DNA of 64,000 nt from Fimbriimonadaceae bacterium (GCA_020850355.1 JADZEX010000050.1:1-64000); one strand, 5' to 3'. Positions 3,319 to 27,813 are shown, counted from the first letter of the stretch. Notes: generated by a model from the sequence alone, not told the origin. A program made the numbers and translations.

Positions 3319-3406
3319 GCCAACGGCCCCGCAACGCGACTCCAAACTCGTCGCGACGCTGCAGTAGGAGCTTTGCGGAGCTGTTGCCAAGAGTCTGGGA
3401 CTCCCC

Positions 3407-3436
3407 TTGACGCCCGGCGAGGGGTTGTGTTATACC
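3407..3436 (+). promoter_or_regulatory. Promoter of the secretin-like gene (shared motif)
   Basis: TTGACG (3407-3412), an 18-base spacer, then TATACC (3431-3436). The stretch from about 3401 to 3440 nearly repeats at 8807-8845. The common core is CCCCTTGACGC-CGGCGAG with TTGTGTTAT before the -10. A perfect inverted repeat GAGTC-TGG-GACTC (3391-3403) abuts the -35; it is not preserved at the second copy. The leader would be about 40 nt. Confidence 0.7.
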
Positions 3437-3483
3437 ATCGCCCAGCGGCAACCCACCGTTCCGCCGCCAGACAGGGGACTGCA

Positions 3484-6400
3484 GTGAAGCGCGCGCAATG
3501 GGTGCTGGCGGTGTGGGTGGCTGGGTTGTTGGGTACGACGGCTGGCGGTGCGACCGTCGAGGAACTCAAGGCCGCGACCGCGGCTCTCACCAAGGCTCGC
3601 GAGGAAGCCAAGGTGTGGCAGGACGCGCTGGCCGCCGCTGCCCCGGCGCTGGCCGCAGTCAAGCTCCAGGACCCACCCGGCAAGACCGTGACGGCGGTCG
3701 CCGAGGCCCTCCAGACCACCGCCAAGCTGCCGGCGGCCGAGGCGGTGACCAGGCGCGTCGGCGAGTTGAAGCCGGGCGAGGGGCTGCACCGCAAGCTCAC
3801 CGATGCGCAGCCGACGGCCGAGGACCGTAAGAAGCCTGCGTGGGAGGCGCCAGCGGTCGCCGCCGAAGCCGAGTTGGCGCTCTTCGCGGCCAGTCCGAAG
3901 CCGGGCGAAGCGCTGCAGACCGCCCGGGATGGCTACCAGACGGCTCGCGACGCCTGCTCGGCGACGCTCACCAAGGCGCTGCAGGCGTGGGCCAAGTCGT
4001 TCGAAGACCTCGCGGCGAAGCCACCGGATGGCGCCACCTGGCTGCCGAAGCTGGGGGCACGGCTCGCCGGGCTGCTGGCGCTGGAGCAGCAGCGGGTCAC
4101 CGTCAACGAGCTGGTCACCCGGTTCAATAAGCTGCAGCCGAGTCCCGCGGTGTCCGCGGAGAACGACCTTTGGAAGCCAGCCGCGGCAGCCGTGACGGCG
4201 GTGGCACCGACGCTCGAAGCGATCAGCACCTACCTCCAGACGGAGGCCACCAAGGGGCAGCAACTGGCGGCTACGTTCCAGCAGTCGCCGCGCGCGGCGG
4301 CGGCGGCGGCCGTCGAGTGGTTGCACCAGGCCCTGACCGCGAAGGCCGCCGTGGCGACGTTGCGAGCGACGCTGGCCGATTGCTGGTCGGCCTGGCAGCA
4401 GGGCGAGCTGGCCAAGGAGGTCGCCGCCCAGCAGCGTGCGGACGCCACCCTGAAACAGTCGGTGGCGCGCCTGATGTTCGAGCACGAGGTGCTCTCTGAC
4501 GCGATCTCCGGGGCGCACGACGGCTGGGTCACCGCCGCGATTGACCTGTACTACTTCGACAGCGTGGCCCGGCTGATGAAGACGTTGCGGCCCGACTTCG
4601 AACCGAGCGAGCCGGCCGACCAACTGGAGACCGCTGCGCGCCAGGCCCGCCAGGCCTTGCTGGAGGCCCAACTGGGACAGGCCGACCTGTACCGCAATCT
4701 GGTCACCGCCCGGCGCCGCCTGGAGGAGCATCTCGACGAGCTGGCCGCCCAGACCCGCTGGGCCGCCAACCGCACGGGCTTGGACAGCTATCTCAAGAGC
4801 CTCAAGAAACGCCTCGAGACCCAGCGCTCCGACGCCACCGACGAGGCGCTGAAGGGCGACTTGGACCGGGCGATCCAGCGGATCGACGCGGCGGTCGAGG
4901 AGCTCGGCGTGCCGAACGCCACCCCACCGGGTGGGTCCACCACGACCGGCCAGACAACGTCAGAGTCCGGGACGACCGCGCCAGCGGCGCCGGCGGCAGA
5001 GGCCCCTACGCCGGCGACGCCCGCGCCAGCGCCGACCCCGCCGGCGGCCGCGCCGCCCAGCAATACCGCGGACTCCGACCGCGCCAGCCTCGACCAGGCG
5101 GTCTCCGACTATCAGCAGGCGGTGCGTTACCTGGTGGGCCTTGACACCAAGATGGCCGAACTGCGTCGCGCCACGGTGAGGGCAGCTTGGGCGGCTTTGG
5201 AGGCCGCCTCGGCCGTGCGCGACCAGCGCACGCTGTGGATTGCCGATGCCACCGCGCTCAGTCCAGACCCCCTCCGACGTTGCCGGATCAGCGCCCAGCC
5301 TGACAGTCGCCGGCTGATCGTCCGCGGCATGCCGCTCGACGTCACCGCCGCGCGCGACATCATCAATGCCGTCGATGTCCCGCAGCCGCAGGCCTTGCTG
5401 ACCATCTGGAACATCAGCCTGGCCGGCCAGGCCGACCATGGCGGCACCGACTTCAGCCGTTTCAATGCCGCACTGCGGGAAGTCGATGCGCTGGTCGCCG
5501 ACCGTGGCAACTGGGTCCGCGCTGCCGTCGGTGAACTGCAACAGAGCCTCTACGAAGCGATCCACCTCTACGCGGAATGCTGGGCCCGCTCTCTACGCGC
5601 ACCTCAGGCTGGCGATGCCGTAGACGACGAGGCGCTGCGTTGGGCGCGGTACAGCGTCTATCCCGAGGAAGTCACCCGCCGCCTGGGACTGGTGCAATTG
5701 GGCGAGGCCGGTGCGAATGGGCCAGCGACGCTCGCGCAACTGGTCAAGCAGCCGAGCCTCGCGCAGACGCGCGAACCGGCTCTCAGCCGCCTCCTGTTGC
5801 CCGATCCCCTGGCGACTCCAACCCTCGGCGAGATGCTGACGGTCCTGGCGCTCTGCCGGCCTGAGGTCCGTGATCTGGTGCTGGCAGCGTTCCAGGACCG
5901 GCTGGAGGCCAAAGCCAACGGGCCGCGGACGGTCTACCTGGCACCCGATCCCTACCCCTTCCACGGCCGCGTCTACCGGCCGGACGAGGAGGCCAAACCG
6001 ACCTGGGTCGACCGGCCCTCCAAGCCCGGCCAGTGGTTCCCGAACCTCCAGGCCGCGGTGCGCCAGGCGCCGGTGGTGCCAGGCGAGGCGCGCCGCTGGC
6101 AGGATCTGCTACGCCTGCAGTGGGCCCTGCGTGAGCTGGAGGAACTGCGGAGTGGCCTCACCGCCGACAATCTGCAGCCCACGCTGGCGCGGCTGACGGC
6201 CATCTACGGCGCATTGCGGCAGAGCCGGGCGACGACGGCAGCGGCCTGGCCGGACACCGATCTCGAGGGTTGTCGGCGGGCGGTGGCGGCCCAACCGAAT
6301 GCTGTGGATAGTGTCTCGAAAGCGCTGGAGGTCGCGTCCGCCAGGCTGGACGGCGCCACCCGGAACTACCGCCCCGTCGCCCCCAGCGCCGTCACGCCGG

Positions 6401-8574
6401 CCCAGAGCGAGTTGGTGATGGCCATCCAGCGCGCGGCCTTGCGACGCGTGCATGGGCGGCTCGATGTGCTGGTGAGTTACTGGCACCGCTTGCAGCACGT
6501 CCCGCTGTCGATGACCGCGCAACGGGTGCAGGCCGAGGCGCTGGAGATCAGCAACTGGTACTGGTCGCAGCCCAACTTGCGACCCGACGTCGGGCCGGGC
6601 GCGCCGGTGACGGCCGATCCGCGGACCGAGATGGCGGCCTTGGCGACCCTCTTGCATCCCAACGAGGCCGACCCCCGGACCTGGATCCACTACCGCATCA
6701 CCGGCGCCTCGGCCAACGCCCGCATTGCCGCCGCCGACGAACTGATCAAGGGGCTGGTGACCGCCTTCGACGCCGATGTCGAGCAGCACTTCGGACGCCC
6801 GATGCTGAAGGCTTTGGACGCCCACTTGCGGCGTTGTCGGCTGAACGTCGGGATCATGCAGCGGCAGTCGGTGCTGACCACCAACCGGGTGCTGGCCCAC
6901 ACCGAGGGCCAGGCCAGCGCTGCGTTGACGATTGGCCAGGAAACCGATGTGTTGCAGGCCGCCACGCAGTACGGCATGCTGGCGCTGAGCGCCCAAACCG
7001 GCAACCTGCTGCAGTTGCTCAGCACCTTGACCAGGCAGGAGCCGGCCAAGGAACCGCGCGCGGACGTCTATGCGGTGACGCCGTCCAGCACCTTCCAGGT
7101 GACCCCAGTGGTCGACCCCAGCGGCCAGGCGTTGCGCTTCCGCTTCGACCACCTCTACCTCAACCCCGTCGCCCAGGCCGATGGCAGTGTCTCGCCCGAA
7201 CTGCCCCGGGTGGAGCGCCACTCGGTCAGCACCGAAGTGCAGGTCAGCAATCTCGAGATGCGCGAGGTGGCGCGGTTCGAATCGAACGTCCGCCTGGGCA
7301 TCCCCAGCAAGCGCTCCGGCGGGTTGCCGATCTTCAAGGACATCCCGGTCCTCAACGAACTGCCGCTGATCGGCTGGTTCAGCCGCCGCTGGGGCAAGGC
7401 CGGGGTGGTCCAGGAGAACCTGGTCCTAGCCCAGACGACGATCTACCCGACGATCCTCGAAATGAGCGCGCTGCTCACGCCAACCGTGGACATCGAGCGG
7501 ATCCAACTGCCGCCAGCAACCACGCCGCCGGCCGCCGGCAGCGCCAGCGCTGCCACGCTCACCACGCTCTTCCCAGCAGCCACCGGCCTGCTGCGCTCGT
7601 GGGACCAGGCCGCCGGGCGTGGCTTGCTGGAGTACAGCCAGGACGGTGTCGTCTACACGGCCAGCTTCACGGCGGGCAGTCTGGCCAAGGACGACGGCGG
7701 ACTGGCAGCCCAACTCGCCGCGACCGGCTCTTTCAAGACGCGACCGCCCGGCGACCCGGGCATTGCGCGGCTGGTGCGTTGCGTGATCACCCAGGACGCT
7801 GGCGGTACGGTGCAGGCCAGCGACCTGGCGTTCTCGTGGACCGACGCTACGTTGACGGCCAAGGCTGGACAAGCACGCTGTAGCATCACCGCCGGCCCGC
7901 AGGGCCTGGTGGTGAAGCCATCCGACGTAGTCCTGGGCGACCTGCTGCTGGCAGCCCTGCTCCGCGAACCGCGGTTCCAGCTCACCTCTCCAGCCAACGC
8001 AACTGCCGTCGTGATCTTCCGCGGTGGCCAGTGGGCCGTGGTGGGACTGCGGCTGAAAGGGGGGCCCGACACTGTGGTGCTACCCGACCACACCGGCCGC
8101 ATCACGGTGTGGGACCGCGGCGCTGCCAAAGGAGCCGTCACGCTGACAATCGGTGGACAGTCGTACACCGCGAGCTTCGTAGGCAAGGATGTCGCCGGAG
8201 ACAGCGCCGGCCTGGGCACCCAGCTTGACGGCACAACCTCCTACCAGGCCGCGGCTGGGATGCAACCCGGCTTCGACCGGGCCGTGCGGATGAACGTCAA
8301 GTACTCCTCGAAGGACGAGATCAAGGTCGCAGCGCTCGGCTTCGAGTGGGTCAGCGGGACGCTCCGCCGGATCCAGGCGCACGACCCGCCGTTGCTCACG
8401 GCCCCCGGCCTGTGGCGGGGCGAACAGGCCGTCCGGCCGGCCAAGCCGCTGGTCGGCAACCACCCCAAGTCAGATGAAGTCGGAGCCGGCTCTGTTTTCG
8501 AGCCGATGGACGTCAAGGCGGCGCTGGCCTTCGTGAACTCGGAGTGGCGGCTGGTCGGGCTGAACCAGCCGTAG
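3484..8574 (+). CDS. Very large secreted protein with a secretin-like segment, function unknown
   Basis: This is a 1696-residue protein. The GTG start at 3484 follows AGGGG and opens with a signal peptide (KRAQWVLAVWVAGLLGTTAGG). Residues to about 560 are Ala-rich, helical and probably coiled coil, followed by a Pro/Ala/Thr linker (about 480-530). Near residue 605 SRRLIVRGMPLDVTAARDII resembles a secretin N-domain (NolW type). Near 1250-1320, GGLPIFKDIPVLNELPLIG with a preceding VQVSNLEMREVARF matches the closing part of the secretin pore domain, though the usual core repeats in between are not recognisable to me. The C-terminal ~370 residues hold two related segments (G-x-x-x-x-WD...YTASF...D-x-x-GL-x-x-QL). 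I infer an outer-membrane or periplasmic assembly protein; whether it forms a secretin ring is unproven. Confidence 0.7.
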   Translation: MKRAQWVLAVWVAGLLGTTAGGATVEELKAATAALTKAREEAKVWQDALAAAAPALAAVKLQDPPGKTVTAVAEALQTTAKLPAAEAVTRRVGELKPGEGLHRKLTDAQPTAEDRKKPAWEAPAVAAEAELALFAASPKPGEALQTARDGYQTARDACSATLTKALQAWAKSFEDLAAKPPDGATWLPKLGARLAGLLALEQQRVTVNELVTRFNKLQPSPAVSAENDLWKPAAAAVTAVAPTLEAISTYLQTEATKGQQLAATFQQSPRAAAAAAVEWLHQALTAKAAVATLRATLADCWSAWQQGELAKEVAAQQRADATLKQSVARLMFEHEVLSDAISGAHDGWVTAAIDLYYFDSVARLMKTLRPDFEPSEPADQLETAARQARQALLEAQLGQADLYRNLVTARRRLEEHLDELAAQTRWAANRTGLDSYLKSLKKRLETQRSDATDEALKGDLDRAIQRIDAAVEELGVPNATPPGGSTTTGQTTSESGTTAPAAPAAEAPTPATPAPAPTPPAAAPPSNTADSDRASLDQAVSDYQQAVRYLVGLDTKMAELRRATVRAAWAALEAASAVRDQRTLWIADATALSPDPLRRCRISAQPDSRRLIVRGMPLDVTAARDIINAVDVPQPQALLTIWNISLAGQADHGGTDFSRFNAALREVDALVADRGNWVRAAVGELQQSLYEAIHLYAECWARSLRAPQAGDAVDDEALRWARYSVYPEEVTRRLGLVQLGEAGANGPATLAQLVKQPSLAQTREPALSRLLLPDPLATPTLGEMLTVLALCRPEVRDLVLAAFQDRLEAKANGPRTVYLAPDPYPFHGRVYRPDEEAKPTWVDRPSKPGQWFPNLQAAVRQAPVVPGEARRWQDLLRLQWALRELEELRSGLTADNLQPTLARLTAIYGALRQSRATTAAAWPDTDLEGCRRAVAAQPNAVDSVSKALEVASARLDGATRNYRPVAPSAVTPAQSELVMAIQRAALRRVHGRLDVLVSYWHRLQHVPLSMTAQRVQAEALEISNWYWSQPNLRPDVGPGAPVTADPRTEMAALATLLHPNEADPRTWIHYRITGASANARIAAADELIKGLVTAFDADVEQHFGRPMLKALDAHLRRCRLNVGIMQRQSVLTTNRVLAHTEGQASAALTIGQETDVLQAATQYGMLALSAQTGNLLQLLSTLTRQEPAKEPRADVYAVTPSSTFQVTPVVDPSGQALRFRFDHLYLNPVAQADGSVSPELPRVERHSVSTEVQVSNLEMREVARFESNVRLGIPSKRSGGLPIFKDIPVLNELPLIGWFSRRWGKAGVVQENLVLAQTTIYPTILEMSALLTPTVDIERIQLPPATTPPAAGSASAATLTTLFPAATGLLRSWDQAAGRGLLEYSQDGVVYTASFTAGSLAKDDGGLAAQLAATGSFKTRPPGDPGIARLVRCVITQDAGGTVQASDLAFSWTDATLTAKAGQARCSITAGPQGLVVKPSDVVLGDLLLAALLREPRFQLTSPANATAVVIFRGGQWAVVGLRLKGGPDTVVLPDHTGRITVWDRGAAKGAVTLTIGGQSYTASFVGKDVAGDSAGLGTQLDGTTSYQAAAGMQPGFDRAVRMNVKYSSKDEIKVAALGFEWVSGTLRRIQAHDPPLLTAPGLWRGEQAVRPAKPLVGNHPKSDEVGAGSVFEPMDVKAALAFVNSEWRLVGLNQP

Positions 8575-8812
8575 CGCTGAGCACGCAGGGTGGGTTGGTT
8601 GGGCGGGCCTGGAGCGGCACTCCTGCGGCGGTCGCGGCGTGCCGCCGGCCGACTCTGGCGGCAGGCGGATATAGCCACATGCCGTGAAGCCGCATCACGA
8701 GTGGCCCAAGTGGTTGCACGGCGGGCCATCGCAGTGCCACATGCCTGATGAACACGTTGCGTAGCTTCAATGCAATACCTCTGTTGCGTCTTCCGAGACT
8801 CAGGGATTCCCC
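8575..8812. other. Intergenic stretch between the two secreted-protein genes
   Basis: There is no convincing open frame, terminator or RNA gene in this stretch. Its 3' end (from about 8797) begins the promoter block that is repeated from 3391. With 8813-8887 it forms the whole 313-base gap between the flanking genes. Confidence 0.5.
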
Positions 8813-8842
8813 TTGACGCTCGGCGAGCCATTGTGTTATGTC
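8813..8842 (+). promoter_or_regulatory. Promoter of the 627-residue partner gene (shared motif)
   Basis: TTGACG (8813-8818), an 18-base spacer and TATGTC (8837-8842). Flanking bases repeat those at 3407-3436: CCCCTTGACGC before the spacer, CGGCGAG inside it and TTGTGTTAT leading into the -10. The inferred leader is about 40 nt and ends in AGGAGG ahead of ATG 8888. Confidence 0.7.
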
Positions 8843-8887
8843 ATGCGCGTCGCTGGAAGAGGCCAGCGGACCGACAGGAGGGTGATC

Positions 8888-10771
8888 ATGCGTCCGGGGA
8901 TCGTTGGCAGGGCCGCGTCGCGCGGCTGGGTAGCGGCGGGTCGCTGCATGGTTGGCGTTGGCCCGGTACCAACCCGGCTCGGCTGGCTGTTGCCGGCCCT
9001 GGTGCTGTCGCTCGCCAGCCCCTCGTGCTGGGCGACGGCGCTGCTGTTGGAGGTGAAGGGCGAGGGCCCCGAGGCATCGGCCATCGGGCTCCGCGACATC
9101 CAGACCGAGAACGTCGCGGGCACCGACCGCACCGCCGAGGTGCGGGCCACCGGGTACTGGCGGCTGACCCCACTGCAGGTGCGGCGGGTCGACAGCGGCA
9201 AGCCGTACATCAAGAAGGCCGAGTTCATCGTGCCGGCGAAGAACCCGTTGTCGAAGGCTCTCGAGGAGACCGAGTCCGCCCAGATCGTGAAGGGCGCCAG
9301 CGCTGATCTCGGCAGACTCAAGACCTGGATCGACGCAGGCAGCGCGAACCCACCGGCCGCCGCGCTGAACCAGGCCGCGCTGGAGGTCGTGGCGCGCACT
9401 GCCGTGGGCCAACACCAGTTGTACCAGATCCGGGACCAGACCCCGCAGGCCTCGTGGCTGTTCCAGCGCGCTCGCGCGGTCCCTGCGAAGCCCCAGGCGG
9501 TCCAGAACCTGAGCTGGCACTGCTACGGCTACACACTGGACGGGGTGGAGCTGACCGACTCGATTCCCACCACCGTCTGGGAGGTCCTGCTGGAGACGCC
9601 GCCGCTGCCGCTGAACATGCGGACCGATGCGCTGCCTGGCGACTTCAAGCTGGAACTGCGCTTCAATCTCGGCGGCGAGGCCCCAGAGGTTGAGACGTTC
9701 CTACCGACCGCGGTGACCGCGACCAGGTCCAGGCCGGCCGTCACCAACGACTACAGCGGCCAACTCGGCGCCGGAGACTCCGCCCCCCGTGTCTTCACGT
9801 TCCGACTGGCCGGCGCGACGACCGAGGATGCCAGCCGAGTCGCCAACGCCAACGCCGATCTGCCGACGAAACTGAAGAGCGGCAACGTCACCCTCAGCGA
9901 CGTGTTGATGTTGCCGGGCTTCGTGGCGAACATGCTCTCGGAGATCACCAACGCTCGGGTCTCGTTCGGCGTCCTGAACTGGCGCGGCAAGAACCAGGAG
10001 ATGTACGGCCTGACCATTCCGCTGGCCGAGATCAACGGCAAGGGCCGGCCCAATCTGGTCGACTTCGGAGCCACCATCGCCTACGCCGATGGGGTCTTTG
10101 GCGGCGGCACGATCGGTTTCGGCAAGGGCCTGCTGCAGATCACCCTGGGCGCCTACCATCGGGATGGACGGCCGATTGAGTATGCGACAGGCTACCATGT
10201 CGACATCGGCCGGGCCCTGCTGGGCGACTACGACAAGGCCAAGGAGCCGCTCAGCGTGATCCTCGAGGCCGACGGCGTGGTGCCCTGCTTCGACCGACTG
10301 CGATCGCTGGACGGCAAGGTCTGGACGTTCAGTACGGACCGCAACAAAATGGCCCTGGCCAAGGACGACCCGCAGCAGGGACAGACGCCCGGCCAGGTCC
10401 GCTGCAGCCTGAACGGTGGCGAGCCGGTGCTGCTGGAGACCGCCGCGGCCGGCCCGCCAACGACGCCATCGCCTGCCGCACCGCCGTCGACCGCGACGAT
10501 TGTCGGGAAGGGCGTTGACAAGCTCACGGCCAAGAAGGACGAGAGCATCGCGATCCAGCTTTGGGTGGTCAGCAACGGACAGGTGGTGTCTGACGGTGGG
10601 CTCATGGCTTGCGTCCTCGGCGGTGCCCAGCTCACTGCCCAGCCGAAGAACGATGGCTTCGAGGTCTCCCATCCTGGCACCGAGGTCCCAGCCAAGATCG
10701 CTGTGATCGCCACCGACAAGGACGGCAAAGTGATCGCACAGCGCGTGCTCGACATCGAGGTGACGAAGTAG
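8888..10771 (+). CDS. Secreted protein of unknown function, likely partner of the secretin-like protein
   Basis: This is a 627-residue protein. ATG at 8888 follows a perfect AGGAGG with six bases of spacing. An extended N-region with several Arg precedes a hydrophobic segment (about residues 30-50, ending CWATALLLE), consistent with a long signal peptide. I recognise no known domain. The middle is mixed alpha/beta with FNLGGEAPEVETFLP and a Gly-rich stretch (GVFGGGTIGFGKGLLQ). A Pro/Thr/Ser linker near residues 520-535 leads into a final ~90-residue beta-rich, Ig-like segment ending in IAVIATDKDGKVI. Its promoter is a near copy of the upstream gene's, so the two are probably co-expressed although transcribed separately. 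The function is unknown. Confidence 0.65.
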   Translation: MRPGIVGRAASRGWVAAGRCMVGVGPVPTRLGWLLPALVLSLASPSCWATALLLEVKGEGPEASAIGLRDIQTENVAGTDRTAEVRATGYWRLTPLQVRRVDSGKPYIKKAEFIVPAKNPLSKALEETESAQIVKGASADLGRLKTWIDAGSANPPAAALNQAALEVVARTAVGQHQLYQIRDQTPQASWLFQRARAVPAKPQAVQNLSWHCYGYTLDGVELTDSIPTTVWEVLLETPPLPLNMRTDALPGDFKLELRFNLGGEAPEVETFLPTAVTATRSRPAVTNDYSGQLGAGDSAPRVFTFRLAGATTEDASRVANANADLPTKLKSGNVTLSDVLMLPGFVANMLSEITNARVSFGVLNWRGKNQEMYGLTIPLAEINGKGRPNLVDFGATIAYADGVFGGGTIGFGKGLLQITLGAYHRDGRPIEYATGYHVDIGRALLGDYDKAKEPLSVILEADGVVPCFDRLRSLDGKVWTFSTDRNKMALAKDDPQQGQTPGQVRCSLNGGEPVLLETAAAGPPTTPSPAAPPSTATIVGKGVDKLTAKKDESIAIQLWVVSNGQVVSDGGLMACVLGGAQLTAQPKNDGFEVSHPGTEVPAKIAVIATDKDGKVIAQRVLDIEVTK

Positions 10772-16132: not shown

Positions 16133-17746
16133 TCAGTTGGTTGGTGGCGCCGGGAGCGCGGACGCGGCCGGAGCCGGGGCCGGCAGCGGCGCGGCCGGTA
16201 CGGCGCTGGTCGGCGCCGCGCCGACGGGCGCCGCGGGTGCGGCCGGGAGCGCGGGCGCGACGCTGGCCGCGGGCGGCGCGGGCTCGACCGCGGCGCTCGC
16301 AGCCGGTGCGGGCGGCACGGCACTGTCCGGGGCCGGGGCCGGAGCCGGGGCCGGGGCCGCCCCGCCACTGCTACTGGTCGGCAACGGCGCTGGGGCGCCG
16401 AGGTCGGTGAGGCCCTCGAGGTAGGTCGCCAGCGCGGCGATCTCGCCCGGCGTGCCGACCAGCGGCGGCATGTAGGAGCGGTACGGCGAGTCGGCGCGGT
16501 ACTCGTGCAGCACCTGCAACAGGTTGACGATGCCCTCGTGGTTGCGGCCCGCCAGCAGGCCGCGCATCGCGCGGTAGCCCTCGCGGGTGTGGCACGAGAG
16601 GCACTGCCCCCGGAACATCAGCTCCCCGATGTCGCCAGGCGTCGCCCCGTAGGCCATCGGCGCGCGGGTCAGGTAGCCCTCGGCATTGTGCTTCTCGACG
16701 TCGCGCAGGCGGACGCCGTTGGAGTACATATAGCCGCCCACCACATACGGCTTGCGGAGCATCTCGCGGACCGTCTCGGAGGTCCCGAAAGCGATGAACG
16801 CGGTCAGCGCGATAGCCGCCGCGCCGCCCACCGAGAAGTCGGGCGCGTTGCGTTGGTCCGTGAATAGGAAGGCCGCCACGACCGTCGCCATCGACGCCAG
16901 GGCGGTTACCATCACCATGCGGGTGGCCGCCGTGAACTGCCCCGGCGCCGCGGTGCCGACGCCGCGCAGCAGCAACTCGCGCTGCTCGGGCGGCACGTTG
17001 GAGACGTACCAGATCACCAGGATCGGCAGGATCACGAACGACGGCAGCAGCCACTGCCGGGTCCAGGCCGCCAGCTCGCGCTTCAGGTCACCGTGCACCT
17101 GGCTGTCCAGCCGGCTGACGGTCCAGAAGGCCCAGACCCCGGCCAGCGAGGCGCAGATCAGCGTCCGGATCAGCAGACTCGGGAGGTAGGTCGGGTTGAA
17201 GAAGGCCTTCCAGAACAGCAGGAAGCCCGCCGCGTCGGGGGTGCCAATGGCGTTCAGCCAGGCGTCGGTGGGCGTCAGCATGAACGTCAAGATGCCGTTG
17301 ATGATCAACAGCGTGAGCCACGACGAGATGGCGTAGAGGTAGCCGATCTTGACGTGGGTCTGGTCCGAGACGCGGCCCCAGAGGTAGTAGTAGGCCGCCG
17401 CCGCCGCGAGCTCGATCACGAAGACGCACCACTCCATGCCCCAGCCGAAGACCCAGTAGTGGATCAGCGTGCTGGTGCCCGGGGCGGAGCCGAGGCCGAT
17501 GGCGAACCAGATCCCGACCCCGGTGACGGCGCCGAAGATGCTGGTGACGATCAGGAAGAAGCGGGAGTGAGTCTGCACCACCGCCAGCCAGTCGCGCCGG
17601 CCTTGCTTCAGGGCATGCCGCTCCAGCAGCGGCAGAAACAGCCCGCCGCCGACCGCGAAGTGCGAGATGTAGACGTGGACGATGGCGATGATGGCAATCA
17701 CCAGGCTGCTGCCAATCACCGGCACGTCCCAGGCAGGATAGTTCAT
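16133..17746 (-). CDS. CydA-like membrane subunit fused to a cytochrome c domain
   Basis: This is a 537-residue protein with about nine TM helices. It is recognisable as cytochrome bd subunit I-related: HVYISHFAVGGG (H24, H29) near the position of the heme b595 His, GMEWCVFVIE (E105, E112), WLTLLIINGI (N150, G151) matching the NGW region, and EMLRKPYVVG near residue 329 matching the GRQPW motif. The segment aligned with the b558 His shows LLIRTL (R194) instead of a His. No Q-loop insertion is apparent. A single c-type heme site CLSCH (C382, C385, H386) and SYMPPL (candidate Met ligand) follow. The last ~90 residues are Pro/Ala-rich. A GGAG lies seven bases before the ATG. I infer a terminal reductase that receives electrons through its own heme c. 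Confidence 0.8.
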   Translation of the reverse strand: MNYPAWDVPVIGSSLVIAIIAIVHVYISHFAVGGGLFLPLLERHALKQGRRDWLAVVQTHSRFFLIVTSIFGAVTGVGIWFAIGLGSAPGTSTLIHYWVFGWGMEWCVFVIELAAAAAYYYLWGRVSDQTHVKIGYLYAISSWLTLLIINGILTFMLTPTDAWLNAIGTPDAAGFLLFWKAFFNPTYLPSLLIRTLICASLAGVWAFWTVSRLDSQVHGDLKRELAAWTRQWLLPSFVILPILVIWYVSNVPPEQRELLLRGVGTAAPGQFTAATRMVMVTALASMATVVAAFLFTDQRNAPDFSVGGAAAIALTAFIAFGTSETVREMLRKPYVVGGYMYSNGVRLRDVEKHNAEGYLTRAPMAYGATPGDIGELMFRGQCLSCHTREGYRAMRGLLAGRNHEGIVNLLQVLHEYRADSPYRSYMPPLVGTPGEIAALATYLEGLTDLGAPAPLPTSSSGGAAPAPAPAPAPDSAVPPAPAASAAVEPAPPAASVAPALPAAPAAPVGAAPTSAVPAAPLPAPAPAASALPAPPTN

Positions 17747-17762
17747 GGTTGTGCTCCGCGGG

Positions 17763-18848
17763 CTAGGCCAGGAAGTACCCCAGGATGGTCAGGAGGGCCA
17801 GGAAGATCACCACGCCGATCCCGAGCTGGGTGACCTTGCGGCCCTGGGCCCCGCTGGGTGTGCGCGGGTCGAAGAACGGCACCAGGCACCAGAGCAGGCC
17901 GCCGAGGCCGAACAGGCCGATCCCGACGATCTCCCCGAGGGTCCCCGGGACGACCATGCCGATCAGCTTGAGGGCGGTGAACTGGCTCATGAAGTACCAC
18001 TCGGGATGAATCCCCAGCGGGGCCGCTGCCAGTGGGTCGCCCTGCGGGCCGAGCTTCCAGGGGAACAGCGCCGCCAGCGAGGAGAGCACCGTGAAGACGA
18101 CCAGCCAGGCGGCCAGGTCGCGCATCATGAAGTGCGGGAAGAATGGAACGCTGCGCCGCGCTTCAACCGGCTTCGCCTCTTCGCTCTCGGGGAGCGCGTT
18201 GCCGTGCTTCTGGACCAGGAAGAGGTGCCCGGCCAGCAGCGGCAGGAAGATCAGCGGGAGCACCACCACGTGCAGCACGAAGAAGCGCTGCACCGTGGCA
18301 TCGCTGATGTCGGCGCCGCCGCGCACCACGACCGTGATGATCTGCGAGACGCCCGGCACGATTTCCGGCAGTGCCAGGCCGACGCGGGTGGCGCAGAGCG
18401 CCAGCTCGTCCATCGGCAGCAGGTAACCGGAGAAGCCGAACACCATCGCCAGTCCGAGCAGCGCCAGACCGCTCCACCAACCGAACTCGCGTGGTTGACG
18501 GTAGGCCTTCATGAAGAAGACGCTGAACATGTGGACGAACACCGCGCCCACCATCAGGTTGGCCGACCAGGCGTGGATCGAGCGCATCAGCCAGCCGAAC
18601 TGCACCTCGTTCATGATCTTGCGGACGGAGTCGTAGGACTCGGGCCCGGGGCGGTAGTAGACCAGCAGCAAGATGCCGCTGACCACCTGAACCAGGAACA
18701 GGAACAGCGCGACGCCGCCCCAGTAGTACCAGAAGGTGTGCCGATGGTTCGGCACCTGCTTGGCCTTGAGGTGATCCGCAGCCGCCGTCAGATCGAGCCG
18801 TGCGTCGCTCCAGGTCCAGGCGCGACGCAGCCAATTGGGCTTAGTCAC
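17763..18848 (-). CDS. Cytochrome b of a bc-type complex
   Basis: This is a 361-residue membrane protein with about eight TM helices, combining the cytochrome b6 and subunit IV parts. Heme ligands are visible as HAWSANLMVGAVFVH (first pair) and HVVVLPLIFLPLLAGH (second pair). The quinol-site motif is PEWY, inside GIHPEWYFMSQF. Start is GTG 18848, and the first eight bases overlap the end of the Rieske gene (GTGACTAA), implying coupled translation. It should oxidise menaquinol or ubiquinol and pass electrons to the Rieske protein. It lies 16 bases before the CydA/cytochrome c fusion, which may be its electron acceptor. Confidence 0.92.
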   Translation of the reverse strand: MTKPNWLRRAWTWSDARLDLTAAADHLKAKQVPNHRHTFWYYWGGVALFLFLVQVVSGILLLVYYRPGPESYDSVRKIMNEVQFGWLMRSIHAWSANLMVGAVFVHMFSVFFMKAYRQPREFGWWSGLALLGLAMVFGFSGYLLPMDELALCATRVGLALPEIVPGVSQIITVVVRGGADISDATVQRFFVLHVVVLPLIFLPLLAGHLFLVQKHGNALPESEEAKPVEARRSVPFFPHFMMRDLAAWLVVFTVLSSLAALFPWKLGPQGDPLAAAPLGIHPEWYFMSQFTALKLIGMVVPGTLGEIVGIGLFGLGGLLWCLVPFFDPRTPSGAQGRKVTQLGIGVVIFLALLTILGYFLA

Positions 18849-19338
18849 GGGACACCACCACCTTCCCGTCGGCGTACACCGCCTGGTAGGCCTTCAGCGG
18901 CTTCGGCGGCGGACCAGAGACGTTGTTGCCGGTTTTCGGATCGTAGACCCCGCCGTGGCAGGCGCAGTAGATGCGCTGCTTCTCGGGCTCGTAGGAGACC
19001 GTGCAGGCGAGGTGGGTGCAGGTCGCGCTGAGCGCCGTCCAGGTCTCGTCAGCGTGCCGGATCAGCAGCGCCGGGCGGCCAGCGAACTTGAACATCAGCG
19101 CGCTGTTGGGCGCCAGGTCGGCGACCTCCAGGGTCACCTCTTTGACCGCTGCATCCTTCAGCGCCTCGTCGGCGGCGGTGCCCAGGTACCGGTAGACCGG
19201 GTACCCCAGCGCCCCGACGTAGACCGCGCCCGCGGCCACCGTGACCGCCTGGATCGCGGTCCGCCGCGAGGGCTCGCCGGCCGGCTCGACAACCGGCTCG
19301 ACGGCCGGCTCCTGCGGGCCGTGGGTGGGTTCACTCAT
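18841..19338 (-). CDS. Rieske iron-sulfur protein of a bc-type complex
   Basis: This is a 165-residue protein with a short Pro/Glu-rich N-terminus, a twin-Arg plus hydrophobic anchor (SRRTAIQAVTVAAGAVYVGAL, about residues 24-45) and a Rieske fold. Cluster motifs are CTHLAC (C107, H109, C112) and CACHGG (C125, C127, H128). C107, H109, C125 and H128 should hold the 2Fe-2S cluster, with C112 and C127 forming the disulfide. A Gly-Pro-Pro-Pro loop follows, as in typical members. It overlaps the upstream membrane subunit by eight bases (ATGAGTGA) and the downstream cytochrome b by eight. Confidence 0.93.
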   Translation of the reverse strand: MSEPTHGPQEPAVEPVVEPAGEPSRRTAIQAVTVAAGAVYVGALGYPVYRYLGTAADEALKDAAVKEVTLEVADLAPNSALMFKFAGRPALLIRHADETWTALSATCTHLACTVSYEPEKQRIYCACHGGVYDPKTGNNVSGPPPKPLKAYQAVYADGKVVVSRD

Positions 19339-20476
19339 GGCTCGGCGCCTCCTCGATCGGGCGGGTCTTCAGGGCCAGCACAACCAGCCCCCCGACGATC
19401 ACCAGGGCCACCACGACCAGCACCAGGAAGATCCCCAGGATCCCCCAGTTCGGGGCCAGGTCGAAGGCCGTCCAAACGTCGAAGCCAGCACGCTTCAAGG
19501 TCAGGTCGCGGATCCCGTCGCGGACCGTGGCCATCACGATGCTGAGCAACGCGGCGACCGCTGGGGCGGCGATCTGGAGGTGCTTCAGCCGTACCCCGGC
19601 AGCGCCCTTCGGCGCGCTGGCGTAGCCCAGCAGACCGACCACGACCGCGGCGGCCCAGAGCACCAGCCAGAGCACCATGCCGAGCGCGCTGAGCGTGTGC
19701 CCCCGCAGATCGGCGGCGACGCCCTCCTGCAGGTTGCGCATCACCAGCAGCGCAAAGCCGCACTGTCCGACCGCGCCCAGCAGCACCAGCAGGCCGCCCT
19801 CGCGCAGCATCACCTGCCGCAAGGCGCCGCTGCGCAAGGTCGGCGCGCCCAACATGATCAGCCCCAGGCCGGCGGTCAGCAGGCCGCCGCAGAGCATGAA
19901 CGCCCAGCGGGGCCAGATGCTGCTGTCACCAAATGGCAGCGCGGTCCCGGTGGCGTTCTGGCGGTACATCTCGCCCCACACATCGGGCCGCAGCATGAGG
20001 GTCATGTTGGTGCTGTAGATCGCCGCGATCACCAGCCCCAGCAGCAGCGCGAGCCCCGCGAAGCCGGCCCACGGCCGAGCCTCGCCGGCCCGCGCCTGGC
20101 CCCAGTAGATCAGCGCGTACATCACCAGCAAGAGGCCGATCACCGAGATCCACCAGGCCCCGATCAGGATGCTGCTGACGTAGATCGCGCTGCCGTACAG
20201 TACCTGCGCGAAGAGCAACGGGGGTACGCCGAGGTTGATCAGGAACGTCATCACCGTCGGCATCATCCGCCCGAGCTGCCGCGAGCCGCTCAGCAGCGCC
20301 TGGTTGCCGCTGCGCCGTCCGCGCAACTCCCACAGCGCCGCGCAGCACAAGGCGCCGAGCATGAACTGCACCAGCGCGAAGTGCAGCCCCAGCAGGGCGA
20401 TGTGCAGCAGTTTGAAGAGCCAGACGGGGGCCGGCAAGCCGATGCCGTCCACCGCTGGGAAGGGGAAGCCTTGCAT
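19331..20476 (-). CDS. Second CydA-like membrane subunit, unassigned
   Basis: This is a 381-residue protein with about nine to ten TM helices. It opens with an amphipathic helix and LLHIALLGLHFALVQFMLG, comparable to the first helix of the CydA-like protein in the same operon. Further weak parallels are STNMTLMLRPDVWGEMY (cf. the NGW...NP...E region) and SIWPRWAFMLCGGLL. The conserved Glu pair and the GRQPW-like motif are not apparent, so it may be a degenerate paralogue acting as a scaffold rather than a catalytic subunit. AGGAAGTGAGG precedes the ATG. It overlaps the Rieske gene by eight bases, placing it in the same transcript. The CydA-like call is my reading by eye. Confidence 0.6.
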   Translation of the reverse strand: MQGFPFPAVDGIGLPAPVWLFKLLHIALLGLHFALVQFMLGALCCAALWELRGRRSGNQALLSGSRQLGRMMPTVMTFLINLGVPPLLFAQVLYGSAIYVSSILIGAWWISVIGLLLVMYALIYWGQARAGEARPWAGFAGLALLLGLVIAAIYSTNMTLMLRPDVWGEMYRQNATGTALPFGDSSIWPRWAFMLCGGLLTAGLGLIMLGAPTLRSGALRQVMLREGGLLVLLGAVGQCGFALLVMRNLQEGVAADLRGHTLSALGMVLWLVLWAAAVVVGLLGYASAPKGAAGVRLKHLQIAAPAVAALLSIVMATVRDGIRDLTLKRAGFDVWTAFDLAPNWGILGIFLVLVVVALVIVGGLVVLALKTRPIEEAPSHE

Positions 20477-27126: not shown

Positions 27127-27813
27127 CTAGTCGGCGGCGGCGGTCCACATCGGGGCCTTCGTTTCCTTCATCCACTTGCAGTGACCGTCGAAGAACTGCA
27201 GGTTGAAGCCCTCGTTGTGGCGAAGGTTAACTTGTCCGCGGCACAGCCCCCAACTCGCAACCGTCGAGACCGTGGGGTTGTTGTAGTCGACGTTGGCCGA
27301 GTTCCACATCTCGAGGGTGGTCAACTCGGCCGCTTGGATGGTGCCGGCCGGTTCGACGATCGTCGCCATCGTCACCACGCCGGTGGCGTTGCCCCAGGCT
27401 CCGGCGAAGTCGCCGCCGCCATAGGAACACGGCAGCGAGTTGGTCAGCGGACCGCTTCCGGCCGGGAACAAGTTGCGGTTCCAAGTGTTCGGGCTGTAGA
27501 CGTTCGGGCAGACCCAGATCTGGGAGTTCTTGACGTAGGGGTGCGCCAGGTCTGGGAACCACGCCAGCATGCCGGGGTTGGCCCAGTAGCAGAACAGTGG
27601 GCAGATCCGTTCGTCGTAGTCCTGCGAGTACTGCATGAAGGCCAGCCCGGCCTGCTTCAGGTTGCTGAGGCAGGAGTTCTGGCGCGCCTTCTCGCGGGCC
27701 TTGGCGAAGACCGGGAAGAGAATCGCAGCGAGAATCGCGATGATCGCAATGACCACGAGGAGTTCGATCAGCGTAAAGCCGACACGATTGCCCCGAGTCC
27801 GGAACTTGCTCAT
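27127..27813 (-). CDS. Type II secretion/type IV pilin-like protein (H-X9-DG)
   Basis: This is a 228-residue pseudopilin. The prepilin cleavage site is GFTLIE (cleavage after Gly, mature N-terminus [20 protein letters not shown]), followed by [13 protein letters not shown] and SQDYDE. The C-terminal signature is [12 protein letters not shown], i.e. His, nine residues, Asp-Gly. GGAG lies seven bases before the ATG. This family is hugely expanded in planctomycetes and Armatimonadota, and this form is one I associate with Armatimonadota. The product is probably processed by a prepilin peptidase and placed on the cell surface or in a secretion pseudopilus. Bases 27814-28038 upstream include the most AT-rich stretch I noticed here (about 27925-28010), the likely promoter zone. 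Confidence 0.92.

Follow-up and report, generated by a model that had tools for sequence, protein, structure and literature searches.

What kind of machine, if any, is built by a 1696-residue secreted protein whose secretin-like parts lie far apart, and does the secreted protein encoded next to it belong to that machine? Secretins are ring-shaped pores through which bacteria pass proteins and fibres across the outer membrane. The locus considered here lies in a 64,000-nucleotide stretch of a Fimbriimonadaceae genome (GCA_020850355.1, JADZEX010000050.1:1-64000; hereafter the window), and its two genes, which we call A (3484-8574) and B (8888-10771), are both on the + strand. A preliminary description of the DNA had proposed a secretin-like protein and a secreted partner with nearly the same promoter, perhaps a surface or secretion apparatus of this lineage. 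We find that A is homologous to secretins, with the pieces of the fold in collinear order and two sites of insertion, and that its family is a rare, apparently undescribed secretin branch found in two phyla.

Results

Two profile matches carry the assignment of A. Secretin_N (PF03958) matches residues 570-636 (5191-5391), the second half of N3, the last N-domain of A, with E 2.6e-6; the full-length protein scores 28.0 bits for a cut-off of 28.2, which is passed at 29.3 bits when A is trimmed to residues 343-1334. Secretin (PF00263) is matched weakly at residues 1195-1307 (E 0.23, 11.5 bits, range 11.5-13.1, cut-off 27.5 bits), and matches below the cut-off recur in 8 of 12 family members, with a best E of 6.6e-4 and a best full-length score of 18.4 bits. 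Among the NCBIfam secretin models, SctC (TIGR02516), the secretin of type III secretion systems (T3SS), is matched by the largest number of members, 6 of 12 with a best E of 6.6e-8; its scores, 31.5 bits for the best homologue and 11.2 bits for A, are far under its cut-off of 238; the GspD model (TIGR02517) gave 13.7-15.5 bits for a cut-off of 351, and the PilQ model (TIGR02515) 10.8-12.4 bits for a cut-off of 284. A search of PDB sequences with the family profile ranked MxiD first and InvG third, at N3 and the first secretin strand. In a profile-profile comparison with 16 canonical secretins of Armatimonadota, which is the host phylum judging by its named relatives, N3 and the first strand matched at P 4e-4 and the C-terminal half at P 7e-4, the two matches being collinear in the A family and in the canonical proteins. 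Weak matches to alpha-xenorhabdolysin, PspA, SMC and similar proteins fell on coiled coils and were set aside as driven by composition. Because Secretin_N passes its cut-off while PF00263 and the equivalog models do not, and the gene context of a type II secretion system (T2SS) or T3SS is lacking, we use the label 'secretin-related'; on its sequence A is nearest to SctC and GspD and belongs to neither.

The layout of A explains how these matches come to be spread along the protein, some 560 residues apart, close to the 600 given in the preliminary description. A predicted signal peptide (residues 1-22, 3484-3549), recognised by inspection of the sequence and with a hydropathy peak of 1.62 at residues 7-25, is followed by an Ala-rich N-terminal region (residues 23-342, 3550-4509) that is helix-like by composition, poorly conserved, variable in length across the family and missing in a 974-aa homologue (L059). 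The first half of a split N3/Secretin_N domain comes next (residues 349-368, 4528-4587), a strand and a helix (7-12 and 19-26 in the model) with the motif LYYFDSVARL, for which the family pattern is LYYF.D..R, continuing as LYYF.D..R..LNP. Between N3 helix 1 and strand 2 a coiled-coil hairpin is inserted (residues 378-579, 4615-5220) with a Pro-rich turn at 476-525; the length between the N3 motifs is 186-332 aa in the family. Beyond this coiled-coil-type segment the family order continues with the motif PDSkt.f.RG..eDv..vk.iI..fD.P.PQAr.tLw..ql, and the first secretin-domain strand, ALLTIWNISLAG in A (residues 636-648, 5389-5427; model strand 294-306), aligns with canonical secretins at their PQVxIE strand.

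The second insertion follows directly. In place of the outer-barrel lip region, which takes up roughly 75 residues in ordinary secretins, A carries a largely helical domain (residues 657-1117, 5452-6834), seen as helices in the models, with the motifs PDP..TTLGE and RxAAADxMIK, which are PDP..tTTLgE.L and RvAAAD.miK in the long insert of the family. The distance from the first strand to the LATNR/LSTPR motif is 486 aa in A and spans 345-861 aa across the family, compared with 67-80 aa in those canonical Armatimonadota secretins whose motifs could be located. The insert was also considered as an alpha-helical membrane crossing, an idea that was dropped, no strongly hydrophobic segment being conserved there. 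The family motif G.iqr.SiLatNR..Arvdp.AsA comes after the insert and contains the LTTNR-motif strand of A (residues 1120-1133, 6841-6882), identified from family alignment, motifs and model as the counterpart of canonical LSTPR. The last conserved block, F.VTPvFDPsGQAlRF...RieRHtvNTEVQlSN...GGiP...vPiIGwF.r...QtsiYPTi, lies in the C-terminal half of the secretin-like domain (residues 1195-1334, 7066-7485; PF00263 match and family alignment A1), and in our reading it would correspond strand by strand to the C-terminal part of a canonical secretin, with LATNR taken as LSTPR and vPiIGwF as IPvLGxLF. A then ends in a 372-aa tail of its own that holds two repeats in tandem, each about 160 aa long (7579-8571; repeat score 119, maximum 53 in 500 shuffles); the tails of other members are 19-101 aa, or longer and unrelated. 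A compact 561-aa distant relative (genome G091, L068:4536-6221) is without the coiled coil and seems to keep a helical insert, which may be a hint as to which insertion came first.

Structure prediction gave the same picture at uneven confidence. AlphaFold2 was run on residues 343-1334 of A with 11 homologues, and a second model was made of a Pyrinomonadaceae homologue (L073, 1204 aa); the two share one alignment set and are therefore not fully independent. Mean predicted local distance difference test (pLDDT) and predicted template modelling (pTM) scores were 55 and 0.45 for A, and 67.6 and 0.53 for the homologue. N3 and the coiled coil were modelled with fair to good confidence, the latter as two long helices with pLDDT of about 65-83 in A and about 80-92 in the homologue, and the barrel strands appear in the expected secretin order at low pLDDT. 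In Foldseek searches against the PDB the A model matched Vibrio cholerae GspD at E 3e-3, and GspD, InvG, MxiD, EpsD, pIV and PilQ made up nearly all of its top 14 matches; for the homologue, InvG, EpsD and GspD were in the first six. The template modelling (TM) scores are low, so this ranking supports kinship to secretins, not atomic detail. Sequence profiles and predicted folds each placed secretins (InvG, MxiD, GspD, EpsD) first, independently of one another, and the secretin reading in the preliminary description stands.

Comparison with characterised secretins places both insertions. In InvG a 'variable insertion' lies between the first helix and the second strand of N3 (PMC6155069), which is the site of the coiled coil in A. 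In BfpB the outer barrel begins with the residues that come directly after N3, up to about 85 further on (PMC12114550), and the lip at the extracellular edge of T2SS secretins is 51-60 residues (PMC8563730); the large helical insert of A therefore falls where the lip would be. From these positions one would expect a helical cap outside the cell and coiled-coil arms in the periplasm. The T3SS secretins (SctC: InvG, MxiD, YscC) resemble the A family most in these respects: they give the best curated model match, they share the N3 insertion between helix 1 and strand 2, where both A-family models have the coiled coil, and their first secretin strand is likewise of the 'LSLWIIDI' type. They differ in that the T3SS insertion is a loop or beta-hairpin where the A family has a coiled coil, and in that the A family has a large helical domain in the lip region and scores far below the SctC cut-off; none of the ten searched genomes that carry the A family has an SctC above cut-off. 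With the T2SS secretins (GspD/EpsD) A shares the order of Secretin_N and Secretin, and they are its top Foldseek matches, yet A scores below cut-off, has no gsp genes nearby, has its lip replaced, and shows no recognisable N-terminal domain set (N0-N2) of the GspD or PilQ type. The secretins of type IV pili and Tad systems (PilQ, BfpB, RcpA) and phage pIV have the secretin fold in common with A, which differs from them too in its score below cut-off and its replaced lip, in the lack of pilus genes nearby, and in having no viral or plasmid homologues. No description of a system with the layout of A, or of its family, was found in the open-access literature, in agreement with the preliminary description.

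Homologues with the layout of A are rare and occur in two phyla. No homologue of A was found in its closest relatives (40-60 searched) or by a single-protein pattern scan of 84,980 species genomes, results that suggested a lineage-specific orphan and were overturned by a search of the phylum and a profile scan. Among 291 Armatimonadota genomes, homologues were found in 10 others, 9 of them strong, across four other families, and in none of the three same-family genomes or the one same-order genome included. With a profile built on the conserved 300 residues at the C terminus (alignment A1), at least 11 loci were detected in the genome collection, a minimum count since the scan used exact short patterns; five belong to Acidobacteriota, with two from Acidobacteriaceae, two from Pyrinomonadaceae and one from gp4. 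The idea of a trait of this lineage must accordingly be given up: the closest relatives are without A, and other Armatimonadota families and Acidobacteriota have it. A is most similar, at 47% identity, to a Pyrinomonadaceae protein, and in a tree of 15 cores, itself of poor resolution, the two phyla are not split into two clean groups, a pattern that would fit transfer between phyla without proving it. Searches for viral or plasmid homologues found none, and a phage or plasmid origin was dropped for want of a match. Nearly all carrier genomes have one copy; in G132 the full-length copy is accompanied, on another contig (L065:3074-3508), by a piece of the conserved secretin-like block that is probably a decayed copy. 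One further match (G037:C313) was rejected as short and outside the secretin-like regions, in a protein that looks thioredoxin-like, and an attempt at synteny through the upstream amidohydrolase gene ended at the nearest usable relative (G001), which has no A-like gene there.

We then consider B and its relation to A. Both open reading frames (ORFs) are real and intact, with codon usage typical of the window and a hydrophobic signal-like N-terminal segment, as had been claimed for two adjacent secreted proteins. A starts with GTG at 3484 and its stop ends at 8574; B (627 aa) starts with ATG at 8888, after a clear AGGAGGG Shine-Dalgarno sequence, and its stop ends at 10771. The gap between them is 313 bp, each gene has its own upstream region, and they do not form an operon. 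Protein B has no match in Pfam, NCBIfam or the PDB. A domain common to A and B was suggested by local alignment and rejected, since 38 of 1000 shuffles reached its score and B was not found with a profile made from the A repeats.

What the two genes do share is an upstream element. Likeness extends over 96 bp, from 3345 to 3440 before A and from 8751 to 8846 before B (both +), with cores at 3407-3433 (TTGACGCCCGGCGAGGGGTTGTGTTAT) and 8813-8839. A search of the 6.67-Mb genome for TTGACGCnCGGCGAGnnnTTGTGTTAT, allowing up to 3 mismatches, returned the copies at 3407 and 8813 and no others, with 0 matches for a reversed control; a genome-wide DNA search with the B copy found the A copy at E 5.7e-7 and a next best match at 0.56. 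That the element is common to A and B and unique in the genome makes their joint regulation likely. It is plausibly a promoter, although a simple consensus scan did not call a sigma-70 promoter in it and the -10 box is poor.

The homologues of A have no conserved neighbours. Hydrolase genes lie beside several of them: in G074 a patatin-DUF3376 protein is encoded 32 bp downstream of the homologue, in G132 the gene 28 bp upstream is for a beta-lactamase-family hydrolase, G138 has an alpha/beta hydrolase, and on the gp4 contig the neighbour is an M36 peptidase. As hydrolases are widespread and were not counted against a control, a cargo role for them is only an idea. The G074 homologue is first in a likely operon (L061:615-14275) that also holds the patatin-DUF3376 protein (1575 aa) and a secreted protein of 1345 aa that matches TPR weakly. 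An anti-phage defence neighbourhood was considered and rejected, the matches being scattered; a SIR2-domain-like protein about 3 kb from an Acidobacteriota homologue (L072:9669-10841, - strand) matches ThsA models at E 6.5e-17. The host genome is in 117 contigs, with A on one of 257 kb, and has 8 canonical secretin-domain matches besides A (e.g., C22:93455-93946, C72:96-602, C6:28346-28846, C88:4433-4912 and C38:194727-195197); canonical secretins are present in every Armatimonadota genome tested. Elsewhere in the window, on the - strand, are a pseudopilin-like protein (27127-27813), of a kind abundant in the phylum and not near A, and what by eye is a quinol-cytochrome c oxidoreductase-like cluster (16133-20476) with cytochrome b and a Rieske-like protein, bordered by two polytopic membrane proteins.

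Discussion

The reading we prefer, and to which we give about an even chance, is that A is an outer-membrane secretin that stands alone in an accessory role, with a large helical cap and with coiled-coil arms in the periplasm, and B its co-regulated, lineage-specific secreted partner or cargo. A would be exported and would assemble into a homo-oligomeric ring in the outer membrane, serving as a stand-alone accessory channel or docking ring. The N3 ring would lie in the periplasm, each subunit contributing one coiled-coil hairpin at the place of the T3SS variable insertion, and these arms could extend in the direction of the cell wall or of a partner in the inner membrane. The large helical domain of each subunit would replace the lip and either cap or gate the pore from outside or form a surface module, while the extra C-terminal repeats would be a species-level addition. 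B, secreted and under the same upstream element, would most simply be cargo or an accessory of A. We hold the channel reading, with its presumed ring and pore, with moderate confidence, and the putative link of B to A with low to moderate confidence. The suggestion of a surface or secretion apparatus is a reasonable one in this light.

Several observations weigh against this reading. Every family member falls short of the cut-offs of PF00263 and of all curated secretin equivalogs, the inner-barrel GG motif and the gate-1 hairpin region are not recognisable, and the barrel part of both models has pLDDT mostly below 50 and low global TM-scores, with about 7 strands where ordinary secretins have 8 and gate loops. 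The locus ORF lists show no secretion ATPase, platform protein, pilin or pseudopilin beside A or its homologues. As to the link, no homologue of B was detected and sequence similarity between A and B is not measurable. The replaced lip and gate regions, the loss of the inner-barrel GG motif, the fewer and poorly predicted strands and the lack of secretion genes nearby would all suit a secretin-derived periplasmic scaffold that keeps the ring fold without an outer-membrane pore, its helical domain and coiled coil forming a structural or tethering ring. We nevertheless consider this somewhat unlikely, as strong conservation across two phyla extends to the order of the remaining strands, the last-strand motif and IPIIGWF, which suggests that the barrel is still needed. 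That the resemblance to secretins arose by chance, A being an unrelated helical secreted protein, is very improbable: the low single-protein PF00263 score would fit, but two collinear profile matches, their repetition across the family, and secretins as the top fold and PDB-profile matches disfavour it.

A might instead be the exit of a canonical T2SS or type IV pilus-like machine encoded elsewhere, replacing or supplementing its ordinary secretin; the 8 canonical secretin matches of the host, and the presence of secretins in every Armatimonadota genome tested, would speak for it. This we judge quite improbable, for A is absent from most relatives with those machines (about 10 of 291 genomes carry it), is not near them, and lacks the recognisable N-terminal domains that GspD or PilQ would bring. 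Independent of the identity of A, the two genes could be unrelated neighbours, the upstream likeness reflecting a local promoter duplication with no joint function. The pair cannot be called a conserved unit: homologues exist for A and not for B, and none of those of A has a neighbour resembling B. Nor do the two genes form an operon. On the other side, both proteins are exported and their genes are adjacent, codirectional and share a 96-bp element unique in the genome, and we regard mere neighbourhood as only a little short of an even proposition. A broader possibility, which we think unlikely, is that the family forms the outer-membrane core of an undescribed, horizontally moving export or surface display system of one or a few proteins, its secretin barrel closed outside by a helical lid set into the lip and driven inside by coiled-coil arms instead of N0-N2 and an inner-membrane platform, and with neighbouring secreted proteins such as B, or the hydrolases, as cargo.

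A branch of this kind, with N3 and most strands kept, the lip replaced by several hundred largely helical residues and a coiled coil set into N3, would show how far the secretin fold can be remodelled. It also hints that Armatimonadota and Acidobacteriota have a function in export or at the envelope that goes undetected by present secretion-system models.

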